Source of the DNA: Rhodoferax sp.
GTDB taxonomy: Bacteria > Pseudomonadota > Gammaproteobacteria > Burkholderiales > Burkholderiaceae_C
DNA: 64,000 bases
NCBI RefSeq assembly: GCF_028689305.1
Contig: NZ_JAQTWM010000002.1
Span: 41,724 to 105,723, forward strand
Reading direction: 5' to 3'
Shown: one piece after another, positions 1,384 through 64,000 of the stretch
Numbering within the stretch: position 1 is the stretch's first letter
Layout: each line of letters opens with the position of its first letter
The notes under the pieces: model-generated
What the model saw: the letters and a program-made list of their open reading frames with translations, nothing else
Told to the model about the DNA's origin: nothing
Database searches by the model: none
Program-made: the position numbers and the translations under genes

Positions 1384-2375
1384 GGCCGTGAGTTTAGGGC
1401 TTGTTGCGCCTGGCTGACCAAGGCCTCCTGCATCAGCCCGACGTTGAACGGGTGCTCCACTGTGCGCATGGTGTCGCTCAGTGCCTTGGCCCAGCTGGTC
1501 AGGCTTTGCCAGCTGCCACCTTGCGGCAAATCACCAGCCTCAAAAAACCGTGGTGCGGCGCCGGTCTTGACGGCCAGCAGATCATGGCAGAGCTTGTGCA
1601 GGGCATCGACGGTTTGGGCTGGCGTCCAGTCTTTGAACACACTCACATCGCCACGCTGCACGGCTTTGGGCAACAGGCGCCACAAATCGCTGATCGGTGC
1701 AAATTGCAAGGCATTGGCGGGTCGGCCCCCGGCGGCGCGCAACATCACCGTGGCCTGGGCAGCGGGCACGCCCTGTGACTGTAACCACTGCATGGCGCTG
1801 TTTTGATCAGGCCAGATCATGGTGTGGCCCAGGCAGCGGCTGCGAATGGTGGGCAGCAACAGGTGGGCAGCCTCGGTGGCCAGCACAAATTTCACGTCGC
1901 CAGCCGGTTCTTCCAGGGTTTTGAGCAAGGCGTTGGCGGTAAACACATTCATGCGCTCGGCAGGAAACACCAGCACCACCTTGCCCCGGCCGCGGGCGCT
2001 GGTGCGCTGGGCGAATTCCACGGTATCACGCATGGCCTCGACCCGGATTTCCTTGCTGATCTTGCGCTTTTTGCTGTCGATCTCAGACTGGGCCTTTTCG
2101 CTCAATGGCCAGCCCAGATCCACCAACGCCGATTCGGGCATCAGCACACACAGGTCGGCGTGGGCGTGCACGTCAATGGCGTGGCAGCTGCCGCAATGGC
2201 CACAGGCGCCCTGCGGCGTGGGCTGGTCGCATAACCAGGCACGGGCCAGGGCCAAGGCCAGCGCATATTGACCCAGCCCGGAAGGGCCGGCCAGCAGCCA
2301 GGCGTGGCCGCGTTGCGCCAGCAGGGTCTGCGCCTGCGCCGCCAGCCAGGGGGCCAGTGGGGTGGAGGCCGTCAT
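1380..2375 (-). CDS. holB: DNA polymerase III subunit delta'
   Basis: [55 protein letters not shown]. Confidence 0.93.
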
Positions 2376-3040
2376 GTCAACCAGCCCTTCTGCCGCACGG
2401 CCCGCAGCACTTCCAGCCAGACCGTTTCACGCGAATTGGCGGCAGCAATGCGGGCAAATCGCTGCGGGTCGGTCTGCAGGCGCTGTAAATACCCCTCACT
2501 GACACGGCTGAAAAAGGCTGCTGGCTGGGCCTCGAATTTGTCAGGCACCCGCACACCCGCCAGACGCCGGGCGGCAATATCGGGCGCCAATTCAAACCAG
2601 ATGGTCAGGTCGGGTTGACGAACAAAATAACCCTCCAGCCCACGTTTTGACTGCACAAGTTGCTCTAGAAAAGATAGCGTATGGAGATCGAATCCGCGCC
2701 CGCCGCCCTGGTAGGCAAAGGTGGCGTCGGTGAACCGGTCACACAGCACCACATCGCCACGGGCCAGCGCTGGCTCGATCAGTTGCTGCAAGTGGTCGCG
2801 CCGGGCGGCGAACACCAGCAGGGCTTCGGTCATGGCATCCATGGTGTCGTTGAGCACCAGGGCACGCAATTTCTCGGCCAGAGGTGTGCCACCTGGCTCG
2901 CGGGTCAGGGTGACCGCCCTGCCCTGCGCTTCAAAAGCGCGCGCCAGAGCGTCGATATGGGTTGATTTGCCGGCACCGTCGATGCCTTCAAAACTGATGA
3001 AAAGTCCCGGAGTGGCCATGGCGGACAGAGGCAGGTTCAT
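2372..3040 (-). CDS. tmk: Thymidylate kinase
   Basis: [20 protein letters not shown]-loop, [30 protein letters not shown]; stop/start overlap with holB. Confidence 0.95.
2619..2678 (-). repeat. Dispersed repeat copy M (inside tmk)
   Basis: minus strand GCTAT-CTTTTCT-AGAGC ... ACGTGGGCTGGAGGGTTATTTTGTTC. Confidence 0.7.
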
Positions 3041-4038
3041 GGCCTGCGCTGGTATTTGTTGACAGCACGATTGTGCGCCGTCAAGTCGTTGCTGAATTCA
3101 CTGCTGCCGTCCCCTCGTGCCACAAAATACAGCGCCTGGCTGGACGCTGGCTGGGCGGCGGCCATCAGGGCCGCCTTGCCTGGCATGGCAATGGGCGTTG
3201 GTGGCAGGCCAACGCGGGTATAGGTATTCCATGGGGTGTCGGCCTGCAAGTCACTGCGGCGCAAATTGCCGTCAAAACGTTCACCCATGCCGTAAATCAC
3301 GGTTGGGTCGGTCTGCAGCAGCATGCCCAGGCGCAAGCGGTTGGTAAATACCGCGGCAATCATGGGCCGGTCACTGGCGCGGCCCGTTTCCTTTTCGATG
3401 ATGCTGGCCAGCGTCAGCAGTTGCTCCGGGGTTTTCAGCGGCGTGTTGTTCTGGCGCATCTGCCAGGCCGCCTCCAGATGCCGGTCCATCGCGCGCAATG
3501 CCCGTGCCAGCACCGCCAAGTCGCTGCTGCCTTTGGCGTAGGTGTAGGTGTCGGGGTAAAAATGCCCCTCGGGCGGGACCCCTGGCCGCCCCAGCTTTTG
3601 CATGATCAAATCGGGCTCCAGCCCGCGTGTATCGGACTTGAGCTGCTCTGCTTTTGAGAGTGTTTCAAGAAACTGCCGAAAGGTCAGCCCCTCCACCAGC
3701 GTGACGGCGCGCAAGGCTTCTTCACCACGAACCAGTTTGGCCAGCAGGCGCTGCGGCGTGACCTCCCCCTCAAGCTCGTAACTGCCCGCCTTGATCTGGC
3801 GGGCCTGGCCAGACAGGCGAAACCACCAGTACAGCAGCTGGGGCGAGGTTTGGACGCCAGCATCCACCACACTCTGGGCAATGCCCCGCACCGGGGTGCC
3901 GGGTTCAATCGACAGGTCGACCACCGGTGTGGCCAAGGACAGGCGCTGATGGACCCACCACCAGCCCGAACCCGCCAGCCCCACTGCCACCACCATCAAT
4001 AAACCGATCAATCGCCGCACAACCCTGTTGCCTTCCAC
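3037..4038 (-). CDS. mltG: Endolytic transglycosylase MltG
   Basis: YceG-like: [67 protein letters not shown]. Confidence 0.95.
3601..3661 (-). repeat. Dispersed repeat copy N (inside mltG)
   Basis: minus strand ACTCT-CAAAAGC-AGAGC ... CGCGGGCTGGAGCCCGATTTGATCATG. Confidence 0.65.
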
Positions 4039-4067: not shown

Positions 4068-4997
4068 ATGCAAAACCAACTCAACGGCGTCGCCCCGCTG
4101 ACACATTTAGGGCTGATTCGTGCACAGGGCGAGGAAGCCGCCAAATTTCTGCACAGCCAATTCACCAACGATTTTGTGCTGCTGGGCCAGACTGAAGCCC
4201 GGCTGGCGGGCTTTTGTACCGCCAAAGGCCGACTGCAAGCCAGTTTCATCGGCTTCAAGCGCAGCCCCACCGATCTCCTGCTGGTCTGCAGCCGTGACAT
4301 CCTGGCGGCCACACTCAAGCGTCTGTCGATGTTTGTCATGCGTGCCAAGGTCAAACTGAGTGATGCCAGCAGCGACTTTGCCGTGTATGGCTTGGTCGGG
4401 TCAGCGGCCATGGATGCTTTCAAAAAAGGAGCTATCCAGGTCCATTCGACGTGGGCTAAGGCCGATTTTGATGATATCAGCCTGATCCAGCTGTATCCGG
4501 CAGATGAGGTGCCCCGGGCGCTCTGGGTGGCACCGCTGAACAGCGTGCTACCAGCGGGTGATGTCTTGCCGCCAGCGTTGTGGGACTGGAGCGAGGTGCG
4601 TAGCGGCATTGCCACCGTGACCCAGCCCATCGTCGAAGCCTTTGTCCCCCAAATGCTCAATTACGAGTCGGTCGGTGGTGTGAATTTCAAAAAAGGTTGT
4701 TATCCGGGGCAGGAAGTGGTGGCGCGCAGCCAGTTTCGCGGCACACTGAAGCGGCGTGCCTACTTGGCGCACGCGGAACTTGCGCTGACCGCGGGCGACG
4801 AGCTGTTTTTGCCTGCTGACGAGGGGCAGCCCTGTGGTCTCGTGGCTCAAGCTGCACCGGCCCCAGACGGCGGCTTTGATGCCATTGTGTCGATCCAGAT
4901 CAGCGCTTTTGAGACCGGTGGTGTCCGTGTGGGACAGGTAGCGGGGCCCCAGCTGGCGCTGTCACCCGTACCCTACCCTTTGCTGGCGGATATTTGA
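4068..4997 (+). CDS. ygfZ: Folate-binding protein YgfZ
   Basis: MQNQLNGVAPLTHLGLIRAQGEEAAKFLHSQFTND..., signature KKGCYPGQEVVARSQFRGTLKRR. Start moved from 3927 to 4068 because the upstream part overlaps mltG antisense. Confidence 0.93.
   Translation: MQNQLNGVAPLTHLGLIRAQGEEAAKFLHSQFTNDFVLLGQTEARLAGFCTAKGRLQASFIGFKRSPTDLLLVCSRDILAATLKRLSMFVMRAKVKLSDASSDFAVYGLVGSAAMDAFKKGAIQVHSTWAKADFDDISLIQLYPADEVPRALWVAPLNSVLPAGDVLPPALWDWSEVRSGIATVTQPIVEAFVPQMLNYESVGGVNFKKGCYPGQEVVARSQFRGTLKRRAYLAHAELALTAGDELFLPADEGQPCGLVAQAAPAPDGGFDAIVSIQISAFETGGVRVGQVAGPQLALSPVPYPLLADI
4416..4478 (+). repeat. Dispersed repeat copy K (inside ygfZ)
   Basis: GCTTT-CAAAAAA-GGAGC ... CGACGTGGGCTAAGGCCGATTTTGATGATAT. Confidence 0.7.
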
Positions 4998-7014: not shown

Positions 7015-7674
7015 ATGACAATGAACCGCCGCCACTGTATCGCGTTGGCAGCGACGCTGGCGGCGGTGGGGATTCCTGCCCACCCCGCACGGGCCCAGAC
7101 CGCGGCAGCCAAACGCCTGCCCGGCACCATTCTGGTCGTTGGAGATTCGTTGAGTGCCGAGTATGGCCTGCAGCGCGGCAGTGGCTGGGTAGCGCTGCTG
7201 GAAAAAAAGCTCAAGGCCGAGAAAATCGCAGCCACGGTGGTCAACGCCAGCATCAGCGGTGACACCACATCGGGTGGACGCACCCGCCTACCAGCCTTGC
7301 TGGAAAAACATCACCCGACCCTGGTGGTGATCGAACTGGGTGGCAACGATGCGCTGCGTGGCCTGTCATTGGCGATGACGCAGGACAACCTGATGGCCAT
7401 GACACAGGTGGCGCAAAAGGCCGGGGCCAGGGTGCTGTTGCTGGGCATGCAGATGCCGCCCAACTATGGGCGCGACTACAGCCAGCGTTTTGCCCAGATG
7501 TATGTGGATGTGGCCAAGTCCGGCAAGGCGGCGCTGGTGCCGTTCCTGCTCAAAGGCATCGCTGACGTGCCTGACAGCGCCCGCTGGTTTCAGGCCGACC
7601 GCATCCACCCGCTTGAGGCGGCGCACCCAGTGATCTTGGCTAATGTCTGGCCCGAGTTGAAAAAAGGATTGTGA
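7015..7674 (+). CDS. tesA: Arylesterase / acyl-CoA thioesterase I-like SGNH hydrolase
   Basis: Signal peptide, ILVVGDSLSAEYGL (GDSL), VIELGGNDALRGL, DRIHPLEAAHP; divergent from the ABC ATPase. Confidence 0.9.
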   Translation: MTMNRRHCIALAATLAAVGIPAHPARAQTAAAKRLPGTILVVGDSLSAEYGLQRGSGWVALLEKKLKAEKIAATVVNASISGDTTSGGRTRLPALLEKHHPTLVVIELGGNDALRGLSLAMTQDNLMAMTQVAQKAGARVLLLGMQMPPNYGRDYSQRFAQMYVDVAKSGKAALVPFLLKGIADVPDSARWFQADRIHPLEAAHPVILANVWPELKKGL

Positions 7675-8738
7675 TGAGTCTGACCCCTATGAGTGCGGCC
7701 GAAGCCATGAGCCGGCTGGCCGATTTCGACACCATCATCGATGCCCGCAGCGAAGACGAATTTGCCGAAGACCACCTGCCCCAGGCCGTGAACTGGCCCA
7801 CGCTCAACAATGACGAGCGCCGCGAGATCGGTACCCTGTACAAACAGGTGAACCCATTTGAGGCCCGTAAACGCGGTGCCGCCGTGGCGGCGCGCAATAT
7901 CGCCGCGCACATCGAGCGCGAGGTGATGGACAAGCCCAAGGACTGGAAGCCGCTGACCTATTGCTGGCGCGGCGGTCAGCGCAGCGGCGCACTGTCGCTG
8001 ATCCTGAGCCAGATCGGTTTTCGGGTGACCCTGATCGACGGTGGCTACAAGGCCTTTCGCTCCGCCATGGTCCAGGACATTGACCGTCTGGTATTGCCGC
8101 TGCAGTTCCAGGTGGTGTGCGGCCCGACGGGCTCCGGCAAAACCCGTTTGCTGCAGGCACTGGCCGCGCAGGGCGCGCAGGTGCTGGACCTCGAAGCCCT
8201 GGCCAACCACCGCAGTTCGGTGCTGGGGGCCATTCCGGGGCTGCCCCAGCCCAGTCAGAAACACTTTGACATGTTGATCTGGGACACGTTGCGCCATCTG
8301 GACAACAGCCGGCCTGTGTACGTGGAGAGTGAAAGCAAGAAGGTCGGCAATGTGTCCGTCCCGGCCACCCTGGTGCAGGCCATGCGCCAGAGCCCGTGCC
8401 TGAATTTACAGCTGTCCGACGCCGAGCGTGTAGCCTTGTTGATGGAGGACTACGACTATCTGGTGCGTGATGTGGATTATTTCTGCAACCGCCTGGCGGT
8501 GCTGACGGCGCTCAAAGGCCGTGTGGTGGTAGAGGGCTGGCAAGCCCAGGCGCGTGCCGGTGCCTTGGCGCCGGTGGTGCAGGACTTGTTGACCAGTCAT
8601 TACGACCCGGCCTATTCCCAGTCCATGCAGCGCAATTTTGTTCAGTTCAATGATTCAAAAACCATAGCACCCATGGACCGTTCCATGCGGGCTATGGCCG
8701 ATTTGGCTGCTCAAATACTGGCCTGTGCGGCGGGCTGA
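7671..8738 (+). CDS. mnmH: tRNA 2-selenouridine synthase (rhodanese + P-loop)
   Basis: N-terminal rhodanese with CWRGGQRSGALS; CGPTGSGKTRLLQAL; YVESESKKVGNVSVP; known synonyms selU/ybbB. Confidence 0.93.
   Translation: MMSLTPMSAAEAMSRLADFDTIIDARSEDEFAEDHLPQAVNWPTLNNDERREIGTLYKQVNPFEARKRGAAVAARNIAAHIEREVMDKPKDWKPLTYCWRGGQRSGALSLILSQIGFRVTLIDGGYKAFRSAMVQDIDRLVLPLQFQVVCGPTGSGKTRLLQALAAQGAQVLDLEALANHRSSVLGAIPGLPQPSQKHFDMLIWDTLRHLDNSRPVYVESESKKVGNVSVPATLVQAMRQSPCLNLQLSDAERVALLMEDYDYLVRDVDYFCNRLAVLTALKGRVVVEGWQAQARAGALAPVVQDLLTSHYDPAYSQSMQRNFVQFNDSKTIAPMDRSMRAMADLAAQILACAAG
8652..8712 (+). repeat. Dispersed repeat copy L (inside mnmH/selU)
   Basis: GATTCAAAAACCATAGC ... CATGCGGGCTATGGCCGATTTGG; tail near-identical to copy K. 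Confidence 0.65.
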
Positions 8739-10751: not shown

Positions 10752-10760
10752 GAATTTACT

Positions 10761-10820
10761 CCTGAAAATATAGCTAATAAGGCAATGAATACGTGGGCTA
10801 GAGGCCTATTTTTTATATAA
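10761..10820 (+). repeat. Dispersed repeat copy A (intergenic, purA / PRT gene)
   Basis: AAAATATAGCTAATAAGGCAATGAATACGTGGGCTAGAGGCCTATTTTTTATATAA. Confidence 0.75.
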
Positions 10821-10846
10821 ACCGGTTGACCCGCAGGGTGACCGGT

Positions 10847-32884: not shown

Positions 32885-32898
32885 AAATCGTCTATATT

Positions 32899-32961
32899 GC
32901 TATATAAAACATAGCTTATCACGCATATTTTATGCGGGCTAGAGGTCTATTTCTTATATAA
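32899..32961 (+). repeat. Dispersed repeat copy B (intergenic, zapE / lpdA)
   Basis: GCTAT-ATAAAAC-ATAGC, internal hairpin CGCATA-ttt-TATGCG, GGGCTAGAGGTCTATTTCTTATATAA. Confidence 0.8.
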
Positions 32962-32964
32962 ATA

Positions 32965-34392
32965 TCAGAAATTCAGCGTGCGCTTGTCCACCGCCAACGC
33001 AGCTTCCTTGGTGGACTCACTCAAGGACGGGTGCGCATGGCAAATGCGGGCAATGTCTTCGCTGCTGGCGCGGAATTCCATGGCCATCACGCATTCGGCA
33101 ATCAGCTCACTGGCCATGGGGCCAATGATGTGAACGCCCAGAATTTCATCGGTGGCGGCATCAGCCAACATCTTGACCATGCCGGTGGTGTCACCCAAGG
33201 CACGGGCCCGGCCATTGGCCAGGAACGGGAACGTGCCCGCCTTGTAGGCCACGCCGTCGGCCTTGAGCTGTTGCTCGGTACGGCCGACCCAGGCAATTTC
33301 GGGGCTGGTGTAAATCACGAACGGAATCGTGTTGAAGTTGACATGCCCGTGCTGACCAGCAATCCGCTCAGCCACGGCAACACCCTCTTCTTCCGCCTTG
33401 TGCGCCAGCATCGGCCCGCGTACCACGTCACCCACGGCCCAGACCCCGGACAGGTTGGTACGGCAATCCGCATCCACCACAATCGCACCGCGCTCGTCGA
33501 GCTTCAGGCCCACAGCCTCGGTATTCAAACCAATGGTATTGGGCACGCGGCCAATGGAGACGATCAGCTTGTCAGCCTCCAGCGTTTGAGCCTCACCTTT
33601 GGCGTTGGTCCAGGCCACATTGACGCCCTTTTTGCCGATCTTGACTTCACCAACCTTGACGCCCAGTTCAATCTTCAAGCCTTGTTTTTCAAAGACTTTC
33701 TTGGCCTCTTTGGCAATTTGCTGGTCCACGGCTCCCAAAAAGTCTGGCAAGCCTTCCAAGATCGTCACCTCAGCGCCCAAACGCCGCCAGACAGAGCCCA
33801 TCTCCAGGCCAATCACGCCAGAGCCGACCAAGGCCAGTTTCTTGGGAACAGTCGTGATGCGCAACGCACCTTCGTTGGAGAGGATGGTTTCCTCATCAAA
33901 CGGTGTACCCGGCAACGCCCGGGCATTCGACCCGGTGGCCACAATGATCTGCTGCCCAACCAGGGTTTCTTCAGCCGCACCACTCACCTTGATCTCGTAG
34001 CCGCCTTCTGCGGCTTTCACAAACGAGGCGCGGCCATGGAAGAAGCTGACTTTGTTCTTTTTGAACAGGTACAAAATGCCGTCGTTGTTTTGCTTCACCA
34101 CGGCATCTTTGCGTGCCACCATCTTGGCGGCATCCATCTTCAAGCCACTCAGCGAAATGCCGTGATCGGCAAAGTGGTGGCTGGCTTGCTCAAAATGCTC
34201 ACTCGATTGCAGCAAAGCCTTGCTGGGAATACAACCCACATTGGTACAAGTGCCGCCCGGGGCCGGGCCACCGTTGGCGTTTTTCCACTCATCCACACAG
34301 GCCACGTTTTTGCCCAACTGGGCGGCACGAATGGCGGCAATGTAGCCACCAGGGCCGCCACCAATCACGATCACATCAAATTGTTTGCTCAT
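32965..34392 (-). CDS. lpdA: Dihydrolipoyl dehydrogenase
   Basis: VIGGGPGGYIAAIRAAQLG, GGTCTNVGCIPSKALL, HAHPSLSE; adjacent to sucB. Confidence 0.97.
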   Translation of the reverse strand: MSKQFDVIVIGGGPGGYIAAIRAAQLGKNVACVDEWKNANGGPAPGGTCTNVGCIPSKALLQSSEHFEQASHHFADHGISLSGLKMDAAKMVARKDAVVKQNNDGILYLFKKNKVSFFHGRASFVKAAEGGYEIKVSGAAEETLVGQQIIVATGSNARALPGTPFDEETILSNEGALRITTVPKKLALVGSGVIGLEMGSVWRRLGAEVTILEGLPDFLGAVDQQIAKEAKKVFEKQGLKIELGVKVGEVKIGKKGVNVAWTNAKGEAQTLEADKLIVSIGRVPNTIGLNTEAVGLKLDERGAIVVDADCRTNLSGVWAVGDVVRGPMLAHKAEEEGVAVAERIAGQHGHVNFNTIPFVIYTSPEIAWVGRTEQQLKADGVAYKAGTFPFLANGRARALGDTTGMVKMLADAATDEILGVHIIGPMASELIAECVMAMEFRASSEDIARICHAHPSLSESTKEAALAVDKRTLNF

Positions 34393-34399
34393 AAAAATC

Positions 34400-34460
34400 C
34401 AGAATTAAAAATAAGAGCAGCCCACGCAGATAGAACGTGGGCTACGGGTCAATTTCTTAT
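34400..34460 (+). repeat. Dispersed repeat copy C (intergenic, lpdA / sucB), diverged 5' module
   Basis: Hairpin AGCCCACG (34419-34426) / CGTGGGCT (34436-34443), tail GGGCTACGGGTCAATTTCTTAT. Confidence 0.65.
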
Positions 34461-34463
34461 CAA

Positions 34464-35741
34464 TCAGATGTCAAACAACAAACGAGCCGGATCTTCCAGT
34501 GCTTCCTTCATCGCCACCAGGCCCAACACGGCTTCGCGGCCGTCGATGATGCGGTGGTCGTAGCTCATGGCAAAGTAGTTCATCGGGCGCACCACCACCT
34601 GGCCGTTTTCCACCATGGCGCGGTCTTTGGTGGCGTGTACGCCCAGAATCGCGCTTTGCGGCGGGTTGATGATGGGGGTGGACATCATGGAACCGAAGGT
34701 GCCGCCGTTGCTGATCGAGAACGTGCCGCCGGTCATTTCTTCCATGCCCAGCTTGCCATCACGGGCTTTGGTGCCAAATTCAGCAATCTTTTTCTCGATG
34801 TCGGCAAAACTCATCTGGTCGGCATTGCGCAAAATCGGCACCACCAGGCCACGGGGTGAACCAACCGCGATACCGATGTCAAAGTAACCGTGGTAGACGA
34901 TGTCGTTGCCATCCACCGAGGCGTTCAGCACCGGGAATTTCTTCAAGGCGTGCACCGCAGCTTTGACGAAGAAGCTCATGAAGCCCAGCTTCACGCCATG
35001 CTCTTTCTCAAACCGCTCTTGCATGCGCTTGCGCATGTCCATCACCGGGGCCATGTTGATCTCGTTGAAGGTCGTCAAAATGGCGTTGGTCGATTGCGAT
35101 TGCAGCAGACGCTCGGCCACGCGAGCGCGCAGGCGGGTCATCGGTACACGTTGTTCCGGGCGGCCCGCCAAAGCGTCGGCCAAGCTGCTGGCCGGTGCTG
35201 CCACTTGAGGCAATACCGGGGCTGTAGCCCTTGCTGGCATTGCGGGAGCAGCTACAACTTTAGGTGCAGCCACAGCCGCCAGAACATCACCCTTGGTGAC
35301 ACGGCCATCTTTGCCAGAACCGGCGACCGAACCGGCTGCCAGTTGGTTGTCGGCCATCAGCTTAGCGGCAGCGGGCATGGCCACACCGGCCATCGAGCCA
35401 CCGGTTGACGCGGGCACAGCAGCAGCCACCGCAGAGGGCGCTGCCGCAGCAGCCATGGCGGCAGCCACCGGCGTCACCGCCACTGCCGCACCGGCGACAG
35501 CTTCGGTGTCAATCCGGGCAATGAGCTGGTCCGCCGCGACCGTGCTGCCGTCGGCTTGTACGATTTCAACAATCACCCCCGCAGCAGGAGCGGGTACTTC
35601 CAGCACCACCTTGTCGGTTTCCACGTCGATCAGGATTTCATCCACAGCGACAGCGTCGCCGACTTTTTTCTTCCACTGCAACAGGGTGGCTTCAGCCACG
35701 GATTCAGACAGTTGCGGGACTTTGACTTCTACGATTGCCAT
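34464..35741 (-). CDS. sucB: 2-oxoglutarate dehydrogenase E2 (dihydrolipoyllysine succinyltransferase)
   Basis: Lipoyl domain [22 protein letters not shown], catalytic [14 protein letters not shown]; start [11 protein letters not shown] at 35741. Confidence 0.96.
35209..35267 (-). repeat. Dispersed repeat copy O (inside sucB linker)
   Basis: minus strand GCACC-TAAAGTT-GTAGC TGCTCCCGCAATGCCAGCAAGGGCTACAGCCCCGGTATTG. Confidence 0.5.
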
Positions 35742-38699: not shown

Positions 38700-38879
38700 G
38701 TTTCGCTGACTTTCATTCCCCTTGAGGGAACTTTGGCTGGTTAAAGCTGATGGTTGATTAACCTTCCGCGTCACGGCTTGACCGTTTGGCGGATGCGACA
38801 GTGGCGTTGGAAGGGCCGTTTGCAGCGCCGGATTGTGCCACCAAATGTGGCAAGCAACCTGACGCTGAAGTTACGTCTC

Positions 38880-40775: not shown

Positions 40776-40882
40776 TGGCGGTCTCCAATTGTTGTGAAAT
40801 AAACTGAATTCATAATTATGAATAGTGAGCTTGCTGTTCCCTGACGAGAACGGTATTGACGATCCCTCCAACAAACTCATAA

Positions 40883-40945
40883 GCTATCTTTTTTATAGCT
40901 ATATGTGATTATTCTTTCCGGGCTGGAAGGCTATTTGATCAATGA
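40883..40945 (+). repeat. Dispersed repeat copy D (prpE / isochorismatase gap, runs into gene 3' end)
   Basis: GCTAT-CTTTTTT-ATAGC ... CCGGGCTGGAAGGCTATTTGATC. Confidence 0.8.
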
Positions 40946-41533
40946 CTGGACGGCTTTGAACTGCGGATGCTCGGCTGAACGCAGCCATTCAAAAGCCACC
41001 ATCTCGGTCGTCACCAGTTCAGCACCAGCGCTGGCGAGCCGGTCAAAAGCGGCGTCGCGATTACGTTCAGTACGGGAACTGCAGGCGTCGGTAACGACCC
41101 AGACGTCAAACTCGTCCTCCAGCAAATGCAGCGCGGTTTGCAACAGGCACACATGCGCCTCACAACCGGCAATCACAATGCTGCTGCGCTCGGAAGGTGT
41201 ATTGGATGGCTTTTGCAAATGCTTGGGCAGGCTGCGGGCGTTGCCTGCCGCAGGCTTGACTGGAGGCCGCAGCCATTCACCCAGGCCCTCTTCGACCCCA
41301 CTGAACTGCATCTTGGCCAGCGTACGGTCGCACAAAGCCTTGATTTCCGGCGGGTTTTCACCCAGCCTGGACGGATTTTGCTCGGTGCCCATCACCGGAA
41401 CATGCAGCAACCGTGCCATTTGAGCCAACCTGCCAGCATTGGCCAACACCAGCGGCGCTTCGTGGATGGCTGGCATCAGGCGGGTCTGGTAGTCCACCAG
41501 GACCAGTTGGGATAAGGCGACGTCAAGCAACAT
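40931..41533 (-). CDS. Isochorismatase-family cysteine hydrolase
   Basis: LVLVDYQTRLMPAI, SSIVIAGCEAHVCLLQTALHLLEDEFDVWVVTDACSSR. Confidence 0.9.
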   Translation of the reverse strand: MLLDVALSQLVLVDYQTRLMPAIHEAPLVLANAGRLAQMARLLHVPVMGTEQNPSRLGENPPEIKALCDRTLAKMQFSGVEEGLGEWLRPPVKPAAGNARSLPKHLQKPSNTPSERSSIVIAGCEAHVCLLQTALHLLEDEFDVWVVTDACSSRTERNRDAAFDRLASAGAELVTTEMVAFEWLRSAEHPQFKAVQSLIK

Positions 41534-44075: not shown

Positions 44076-44085
44076 ATCATCATTT

Positions 44086-44148
44086 GCTATATTATTTATA
44101 GCTAATGATGTCCTGTTTATCTGGGGTAGAGGTCCATATCTCATCTGT
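44086..44148 (+). repeat. Dispersed repeat copy E (after NlpC/P60 gene)
   Basis: GCTAT-ATTATTT-ATAGC ... ATCTGGGGTAGAGGTCCATATCTCATC. Confidence 0.75.
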
Positions 44149-44196
44149 TTGATTCACTCGCCCGAGGCTGACCAAGCGCTCGGGGTTTCACCGGGG

Positions 44197-51639: not shown

Positions 51640-51650
51640 ATCACTTCGTT

Positions 51651-51712
51651 GATCCAATAAATAGCTGCTTAGCCCTTATGAAATAAAGGTCAGCAGCTAT
51701 TTTTTTGATAGT
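51651..51712 (-). repeat. Dispersed repeat copy F (after aminotransferase gene; acts as terminator hairpin)
   Basis: minus strand ACTAT-CAAAAAA-ATAGC TGCTGACCTTTATTTCATAAGGGCTAAGCAGCTATTTATTGGATC. Confidence 0.75.
51659..51706 (+). terminator. Rho-independent terminator-like hairpin after the aminotransferase gene (also part of repeat copy F)
   Basis: Perfect 11-bp arms AAATAGCTGCT (51659-51669) / AGCAGCTATTT (51692-51702), T-run to 51706. Confidence 0.75.
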
Positions 51713-51723
51713 AATCTGGCAAC

Positions 51724-60413: not shown

Positions 60414-60456
60414 GGTGGTTGTCTTTCTTGGGTCGGAAAAATGGTTGAAAATAATT

Positions 60457-60515
60457 GCTATAAATTAGATAGCTGTCAGCGCTTATTTCTTCTGGGCTGA
60501 GAGCATATTTCTTGC
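60457..60515 (+). repeat. Dispersed repeat copy G (pccB / meaB gap, runs into meaB 3' end)
   Basis: GCTAT-AAATTAG-ATAGC TGTCAGCGCTTATTTCTTCTGGGCTGAGAGCATATTTCTTG. Confidence 0.8.
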
Positions 60516-61481
60516 TGCAGTTGAGGCCGCCATGCGACCTTGCAGAACCTCCTGGGTCAGCGTCGGCAGCATGGCCTGCACCGCCGGGTGCTGGCGAAAC
60601 GCCTGTTTCAAACCGGCGTCAATATGTTCCCACATCCAGGCCAATGCCTGGTTCTGCCGGCGCGTGAGCCACTGACCATGGCCGGTCTGCAGTGCCTTGA
60701 ACTCCAGCACCTTGTGCCAGAACACGTCCACCCCCTGACCCAGCAAGGCACTGAGTTGAATGACCTGCGGGTGCCAGATATGCGTGTCATGATGGGCATG
60801 GTCGGGGTGGCCATGCAGCCCCAGAAGACGCAGCGACGAGGTGATCTGGGCCTGCGCCCGGGTAGCGGCACTGGCATCAATATCTGCCTTGTTGATCACG
60901 ACCAGATCGGCCAGCTCCATCACACCTTTCTTGATGGCTTGCAAATCGTCGCCGGCGTTGGGCAATTGCAGCAGCACAAACATGTCAGTCATGTCGGCAA
61001 CTGCGGTTTCGCTCTGGCCCACACCCACGGTTTCGACGATCACCACGTCGTACCCTGCCGCCTCGCAGACCAGCATGGCCTCGCGGGTTTTTTCGGCCAC
61101 ACCGCCAAGCGTGCCGCTGCTGGGGCTGGGGCGAATAAAGGCCTTGTCGTTCACCGACAGGTGCTCCATGCGGGTTTTGTCACCCAGGATGGAGCCGCCA
61201 GAGACGCTGCTGCTGGGGTCCACCGCCAGCACCGCCACGCGGTGACCCTGACCGATCAGGTACAGGCCTAGCGCTTCAATAAAGGTGGATTTGCCCACGC
61301 CGGGCACGCCGCTGATGCCCAGGCGCAGCGCCTTGCCGGTGTGGGGCAGCAAGGCGGTCAGGAGCTCATCGGCCTGCACGCGGTGGTCAGCGCGGGTGGA
61401 TTCCAGCAACGTGATGGCTTTGGCGATGGCGCGGCGCTGCTGGGCACCGCTGCCTTGCAAAATAGGCTCCAGCAAGTTCAT
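60483..61481 (-). CDS. meaB: Methylmalonyl-CoA mutase-associated GTPase MeaB
   Basis: [51 protein letters not shown]. Confidence 0.94.
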
Positions 61482-62716: not shown

Positions 62717-64000
62717 TCAAACAGCCAGCGCTTTCTTGATCTGCTCCAACACATCCTTGGCGCTGGCCGGAATCGGCGTGCCAGGGCCGTAGATGCCTTT
62801 GACACCAGCTTCATAGAGCATGTCGTAATCCTGGCGCGGAATCACACCGCCAACGAAGACGATGATGTCGTCAGCGCCCTGCTTTTTCAACTCGGCAATG
62901 ATGGCGGGCACCAGGGTTTTGTGGCCGGCTGCCAGTGTAGAAACGCCCACGGCGTGCACGTCGTTTTCTATCGCCTGGCGGGCGCATTCTTCGGGGGTCT
63001 GGAACAACGGCCCCATGTCCACGTCAAAGCCCAGGTCGGCAAAAGCGGTGGCCACCACTTTGGCACCGCGGTCGTGGCCGTCCTGGCCGAGCTTGCTGAT
63101 CATCACCCGGGGGCGGCGACCCTGTGCTTCGGCAAAAGCGGCAATTTCTTCCTTGAGCTTGTCCCAACCTTCGGCACTGTCGTAAGCGGCTGCGTACACA
63201 CCGGTCACCTTTTGTGTATCGGCGCGGTGGCGGCCAAAAGCCTGCTCCATCGCGTCGCTGATTTCACCCACGGTGGCACGCGCGCGCACCGCCTTGATGC
63301 TCAAATCCAGCAGGTTGCCCGTGCCGGTTTTTGCTGCATTTGTGATAGCTGCCAGCGCTTGTTCTACCTGGGCTGCATCACGTTTTTGTTTGATGACTTT
63401 GAGGCGTTCAATCTGCCCGTCACGCACCGCCATGTTATCGATGTCGCGGGCTTCAATGACATCTTCGGTCTTGAGCTTGTATTTGTTCACACCGACGATC
63501 ACGTCGCGGCCAGAGTCAATGCGGGCCTGCTTGTCCGCAGCGGCAGCCTCGATCTTGAGCTTGGCCCAGCCGCTATCCACGGCCTTGGTCATGCCGCCCA
63601 TGGCCTCGACCTCTTCGATGATGGCCCAGGCGGCATCGGCCATGTCCTGGGTCAACTTTTCCATCATGTACGAACCGGCCCAGGGGTCAATCACGTTGGT
63701 GATGTGGGTCTCTTCCTGGATGATGAGCTGGGTGTTGCGGGCGATACGGGCGCTGAACTCGGTCGGCAGGGCAATGGCTTCGTCGAATGAATTGGTGTGC
63801 AGCGACTGGGTGCCGCCAAATACCGCCGCCATGGCCTCGATGGTGGTGCGCACCACGTTGTTGTAGGGGTCTTGCTCGGTGAGGCTCCAGCCGCTGGTCT
63901 GGCAGTGGGTGCGCAGCATCAGGCTCTTGGGCTTTTTGGCCTCAAAACCCTTCATGATGCGGCACCACAGCAGACGGGCAGCGCGCATTTTGGCCACTTC
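62717..64000 (-). CDS. Methylmalonyl-CoA mutase, C-terminal part incl. B12-binding domain (5' end beyond window)
   Basis: [45 protein letters not shown]12 motif [11 protein letters not shown]. Confidence 0.95.
63333..63394 (+). repeat. Dispersed repeat copy P (antisense inside methylmalonyl-CoA mutase gene)
   Basis: GCTGC-ATTTGTG-ATAGC TGCCAGCGCTTGTTCTACCTGGGCTGCATCACGTTTTTGTTTGATG; parallels copy G. Confidence 0.65.

Follow-up and report, generated by a model that had tools for sequence, protein, structure and literature searches.

The gene ygfZ, which encodes a CAF17-like Fe-S assembly/tRNA-modifying protein, is divergent from mltG and tmk in the window, by which we mean the whole 64,000-nucleotide stretch of Rhodoferax sp. 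DNA analysed here. Its 309-residue product scores 89.4 bits against TIGR03317 (cut-off 49), matches E. coli YgfZ (1nrk/1vly) in a phmmer search with an E value of 3e-18, and contains KGCYPGQE, the signature of the CAF17-like YgfZ signature domain. This gene and its two divergent neighbors each carry a copy of a dispersed sequence motif, further copies of which are found between and within other genes of the window (Table 1).

Table 1. Genes and motif copies in the window, with scores from the covariance model (R1) and the position matrix (PSSM)
Feature	Position	Strand	Evidence
Motif copy in tmk (2372-3040, -)	2614..2683	-	R1 33.4 bits; PSSM 37.7
Motif copy in mltG (3037-4038, -)	3597..3666	-	R1 28.6 bits; PSSM 30.0
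ygfZ, hosting a motif copy	4068..4997	+	TIGR03317 and phmmer
Motif copy in ygfZ	4411..4479	+	R1 37.7 bits, E 3.4e-5 (within the window); PSSM 42-47 bits
Weak copy near the C-terminal end of an ORF (7671-8738, +)	8647..8715	+	R1 21.0 bits, E 0.09; PSSM 18.3
Strong intergenic copy	10753..10822	+	R1 68.7 bits
Strong intergenic copy	32894..32963	+	R1 66.7 bits
Intergenic copy	34382..34466	+	R1 27.2 bits
Copy at gene end	40878..40947	+	R1 40.9 bits
Intergenic copy	44081..44150	+	R1 37.2 bits
Intergenic copy	51648..51717	-	R1 29.9 bits
Copy at gene end	60452..60521	+	R1 42.6 bits
Copy antisense inside an ORF (62717-63997, -)	63328..63397	+	R1 24.1 bits, E 0.02; PSSM 28.7

The original prediction placed a repeat copy inside ygfZ, as a string that begins at 4416 and is in frame with the gene, and stated that it follows the layout of its family. 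Both statements held: the string is in frame, and a covariance model, R1, trained on 29 copies that did not include the one in ygfZ, matches the gene over the full length of the model. The core of the copy (4415-4471) has lost one base at motif column 49 (GGGCTA-AGGCC), which keeps the frame GCC GAT TTT GAT. Scored against a position matrix, the copy reaches 47 bits, or 42 once a gap penalty is applied. When the same YgfZ peptide was recoded synonymously 3000 times with the codon usage of the genome, the scores had a mean of 1.7 and a standard deviation of 7.6, and none reached the observed 42 (maximum 30.8). The motif copy in ygfZ is therefore real.

The family is large. A search of the 3.83 Mb genome with the final 18 bases of the consensus, at most one mismatch being allowed, gave 81 matches, and the reversed pattern gave none; 29 pattern-matched copies align without gaps over 70 columns. 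The position matrix identified 118-120 copies in 814 kb (about 750 kb of genome stretches together with the window) and none in the reversed sequence at thresholds of 8 or more, and we estimate about 550-560 copies per genome. The motif is roughly TGCTAT-N7-ATAGCT-N19-GGGCTAGAGGCC-N-ATTTT, about 58-70 bp in length, with AT-rich blocks and about 58 informative columns that hold some 63 bits in all. Correlations between columns are mostly between neighbors, and apart from a slight excess of pair identity there are no clear subfamilies. Copies occur on both strands, in and between genes, with near-random spacing (CV 0.90). About a third lie within ORFs, a split that is approximate because our simple ORF caller missed ygfZ, whose ORF overlaps mltG. 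Three of the six reading frames dominate among them, and in phase 1 coding copies the TAG stop of the motif is altered, usually to GAG.

In the genome G010, the density of copies is even around the chromosome, without a gradient towards origin or terminus and without KOPS- or Chi-like strand polarity (52 of 106 copies run with the replication fork). Two of the strongest G010 copies stand in tandem, 103 bases from start to start (C1:1142111-1142283). Of 251 genomes sampled from the taxonomic family, 81 contain the family pattern, though single matches may be chance, and the highest count was 119 per genome; an R1 search of 24 other families of the order returned nothing, and the core string of the motif was absent from the relevant papers searched. 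We rejected a structured RNA, as a covariation test gave 0 pairs with changes on both sides; an Rfam search at the motif copies gave no match. Elsewhere in the window, a SucA RNA motif (RF01070, 73.6 bits, 38704-38798 on the minus strand) belongs to a known Rfam family.

A further claim, that the repeat adds the segment FKKGAIQVHSTWAKADFDDI to YgfZ, did not hold. The original prediction named the segment's presence in orthologs from repeat-less genomes as the observation that would speak against it, and this is largely what we found. The alignments covered over 100 orthologs from Comamonadaceae and about 20 from further Burkholderiales families. In them, the stretch also aligns in genomes without the repeat (e.g., G003 L070, G022 L068 and Variovorax L125), with almost no difference in length, and the outgroup families have a colinear stretch of about the same length. 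The sole length difference nearby is one of four residues (SAAM or equivalent; window 4401-4412), just before the motif, which splits one Rhodoferax group from the other Comamonadaceae. Carriers and non-carriers of the motif differ in ygfZ DNA and in the residues forced by that DNA, not in the presence of a segment. In an AlphaFold2 model of YgfZ (mean pLDDT 90.6), the stretch (approximately residues 116-136) comprises the end of a helix (112-121), a loop and a strand (130-134), and is thus predicted to belong to the protein fold. An old swap of the YgfZ loop for an element is conceivable, but this lineage gained no segment.

Among the Comamonadaceae ygfZ orthologs examined, approximately 40 have the motif at identical codons, in most cases 3-8 standard deviations above their own synonymous null; they include Rhodoferax antarcticus (46.5 bits), a Curvibacter, several Polaromonas and Simplicispira metamorpha. 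As the same place is occupied in all of these, the ygfZ copy is not recent.

Other core genes present a similar picture. R1 also detects the mltG and tmk copies in orthologs. The rlmI copy (54.6 bits) lies over a helix that aligns colinearly among carriers, non-carriers and an outgroup, and mltG is likewise colinear between carriers and orthologs without the motif, which indicates that the motif overlies existing protein in these two genes. In miaA, the motif-holding loop is about 16-22 residues longer in carriers than in non-carriers and outgroups, so at least one copy came with a gain or loss of residues. Overlay on existing protein is thus common, with residue gain also occurring. The MiaA loop after SSFH (orthologs L273-L302) ranges from none to more than 20 extra residues, varying with the motif, and non-carriers may hold trimmed relics of it (HTPKTAA, HTAKART).

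Codon choice at the motif is distinctive. Codon 77 of rlmI is ATA in 11 of 15 carriers and GTA in the other four, although ATA accounts for only 189 of 9391 Ile codons (2%) in the sampled genes. Codon 78 is GCT in 14/15 carriers and codon 89 is CGA in 10/15, with other codons used by non-carriers at 77, 78 and 89, and codon 86 is GCT in 13/15 carriers versus GCC in 11/12 non-carriers. The presence of AGA at codon 87 in 8/12 non-carriers is consistent with descent from a carrier. Carriers most often have ATA at codon 121 of ygfZ (7/16), and GCT is the next codon in 13/16. Between the genome pairs compared, identity at fourfold sites outside the motif is only 44-58%, which is near saturation. 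Inside versus outside the motif, fourfold identity is 0.66 versus 0.50 for ygfZ and 0.60 versus 0.53 for rlmI, so the mean rise is modest and the signal resides in particular codons, those that supply the core letters of the motif. The retention of rare codons at motif positions despite near-saturated synonymous sites looks like maintenance at the DNA level.

We then compared genomes with at least 10 R1 hits to those with at most 4. With few exceptions (ygfZ in G023; miaA in G036 and G026), the many-hit genomes have positive scores at ygfZ, rlmI, miaA and mltG, and the low-hit genomes have negative scores at all four. The apparent exception in the latter group, G029 (1 R1 hit, rlmI +21.5), is a divergent genome that can be scored at rlmI only. 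In trees of YgfZ, RlmI and MiaA with the motif columns removed, the non-carriers fall into four separate groups within the carriers, and strong branch support forces each of these. The motif was thus lost independently four times, jointly at ygfZ, rlmI, miaA and mltG. The G000 matrix found no copies in 140 kb from each of the non-carriers G003 and G006, while the carrier G032, sister to G006, has 18-22 copies in 120 kb. A missed dialect in the non-carriers was rejected, since two dialect matrices and a mixture of them gave 0-4 weak matches per 140 kb. GC content was also rejected as the cause of absence, as the GC3 ranges of carriers and non-carriers overlap; the GC3 of G006 is lower than that of G032.

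The motif differs among carrier genomes in a manner that we describe as dialects. Copies in G010 have the form CTTGCGC...ACAAGCGCTA, G000 copies are variable in place of the first of these two blocks and read TATGCGGGCTA in place of the second, and G032 has a third form; motif columns 41-42 are GC, CC, CT or GT in G000, AA in G010, and GG or GA in G032. In all eight orthologous copy pairs, each member is nearer to the dialect of its own genome, and leaving GC content out of the comparison gives the same direction in 8/8 pairs. Part of the raw score reflects decay (on this scale, random 58-mers come to about -14 in either genome), and with the log-odds partly decay our conclusion rests on the diagnostic columns: columns 41-42 are AA in six of the eight G010 members of these pairs and in none of the G000 members. 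The protein can shift with the dialect, as in MltG, where DTRGLEPD in G000 corresponds to DTQALDAN in G010.

The ygfZ copy is thus old and aligns colinearly with ordinary ygfZ; carriers retain it, each genome has shifted it to its own dialect, and it is lost in step with its family. The long-standing common position, the retained core codons, the concerted loss and the dialects jointly argue for a sequence that is recognized in trans and that selection or drive maintains, and we put the probability that the motif is maintained at the DNA level at roughly 0.65. The ygfZ stretch would then be one site of a dispersed DNA recognition sequence, bound by a trans-acting factor; selection or molecular drive would keep and remodel the motif at permissive places, genic and intergenic, and loss of the factor would let all copies decay together. 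The information content, about 63 bits, far exceeds what is needed to specify some 560 places, and copying of an element fits this better than site-by-site selection. The residue change in miaA, the modest mean rise in fourfold identity, the share of decay in the dialect scores and the distribution of comEC also count against the reading.

By analogy, the likeliest kind of factor would be a sequence-selective DNA uptake system of natural transformation, comparable to that behind the DUS dialects of Neisseriaceae. Like the DUS/USS of Neisseriaceae and Pasteurellaceae, the motif is strongly over-represented genome-wide, has hundreds of dispersed genic and intergenic copies, some of them over conserved proteins (rlmI, mltG, ygfZ), differs in form among lineages and is missing from some genomes of its family. 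DUS also show a reading-frame preference (PMC2346458), and their dialects follow phylogeny and they occupy permissive positions in core genes (PMC3630211); the motif shares this feature set (PMC3630211, PMC2346458). Natural transformation, with a slight indication of sequence specificity, is reported for one Comamonadaceae species, Verminephrobacter eiseniae (PMC4212676). DUS/USS, however, have a core of 9-12 bp, and we do not file the motif of Comamonadaceae as a DUS because it is far longer. Indeed, no known uptake sequence approaches its length, and DNA uptake sequences are not known from Comamonadaceae. The gene comEC does not track the motif, being present in carriers and non-carriers and in all congeners searched, and its loss was accordingly rejected as the cause of motif loss. 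One motif copy lies inside comEC of G010 (C1:2598998-2599067). We offer the uptake version only tentatively, at less than even odds and as less probable than DNA-level maintenance itself.

The main alternative is that the motif is the binding site of a chromosome-organizing or nucleoid-associated protein that was lost in four lineages, and is not an uptake signal. This would suit the even density around the G010 chromosome, the occurrence of copies on both strands and in and between genes, and the neighbor-column dependencies and AT-rich blocks, which resemble those of protein sites. The lack of an origin/terminus gradient or strand bias in G010 and the near-random spacing speak against it, as do the dialects, which over hundreds of sites would, to our knowledge, be unusual for such proteins, and we regard it as unlikely. 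Somewhat less likely again, and next among the alternatives, is an ancient mobile element that inserted in frame in a Comamonadaceae ancestor and has since decayed passively at differing rates. Rickettsia palindromic elements (RPE) are short, dispersed, and found in frame in housekeeping genes as well as between genes. The motif, compared with RPE as described, is likewise short, dispersed, and both in-frame genic and intergenic, and the preferred frames and altered TAG of its coding copies, the longer miaA loop in carriers and the very high information content would all agree with an element. Unlike RPE, most coding copies examined are colinear with motif-less orthologs, residues having been added only in miaA and not in ygfZ, rlmI or mltG, and the motif is kept at the DNA level and has genome dialects. 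Passive decay would not retain rare codons at near saturation, erase all sites together in four lineages, or shift orthologous copies to genome-specific dialects.

Other known repeats account for the data less well. A REP-type repeat mobilized by a single-copy RAYT-like Y1 transposase would share with the motif its many short copies with imperfect hairpins, and such a gene is present in G000 (L235, on C177) and in nearly all congeners (L236-L240), with a motif copy after its stop codon in the carriers examined. Yet the gene is equally present in non-carriers and so does not track the motif, its own recurring downstream flank is another sequence, AATTGGAATCTGACCCCAATT, and motif copies stay at orthologous places instead of moving, making this a very improbable explanation. 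The beta-proteobacterial repeat element BRE has been reported from Bordetella and Comamonadaceae, with some copies inside genes; it is about 90 bp long, 69% GC in Bordetella, present in at most 29 copies and often tandem (PMC3110155). The motif studied here is AT-rich, usually occurs singly and outnumbers BRE about 20-fold, and we rejected BRE as its identity on the basis of length, GC content, copy number and tandem habit. Finally, W-x-K-x-D is common among YgfZ orthologs without the motif, and WAKADF might merely read like the motif through chance or protein conservation; the failure of every synonymous recoding to reach the observed score, and the tracking of family presence in the genome by the ygfZ motif, leave a negligible probability for this.

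Returning to maintenance at the DNA level, we consider the chances about even that the motif represents an undescribed recognition sequence of Comamonadaceae, some 60 bp long and genome-wide, with dialects, maintained in trans, setting codons and amino acids of housekeeping genes, and discarded as a whole on several occasions. Given its dialects and these repeated losses of all copies, a recognizing protein would be findable by comparison of carriers with sister non-carriers. If this reading is correct, a DNA-level signal shapes core proteins (ygfZ, rlmI, mltG, tmk and miaA) in a large family of freshwater and soil bacteria. The motif would then either join the self-marking sequences of Neisseriaceae and Pasteurellaceae as a second and much longer type, or represent a new binding system that spans the chromosome.
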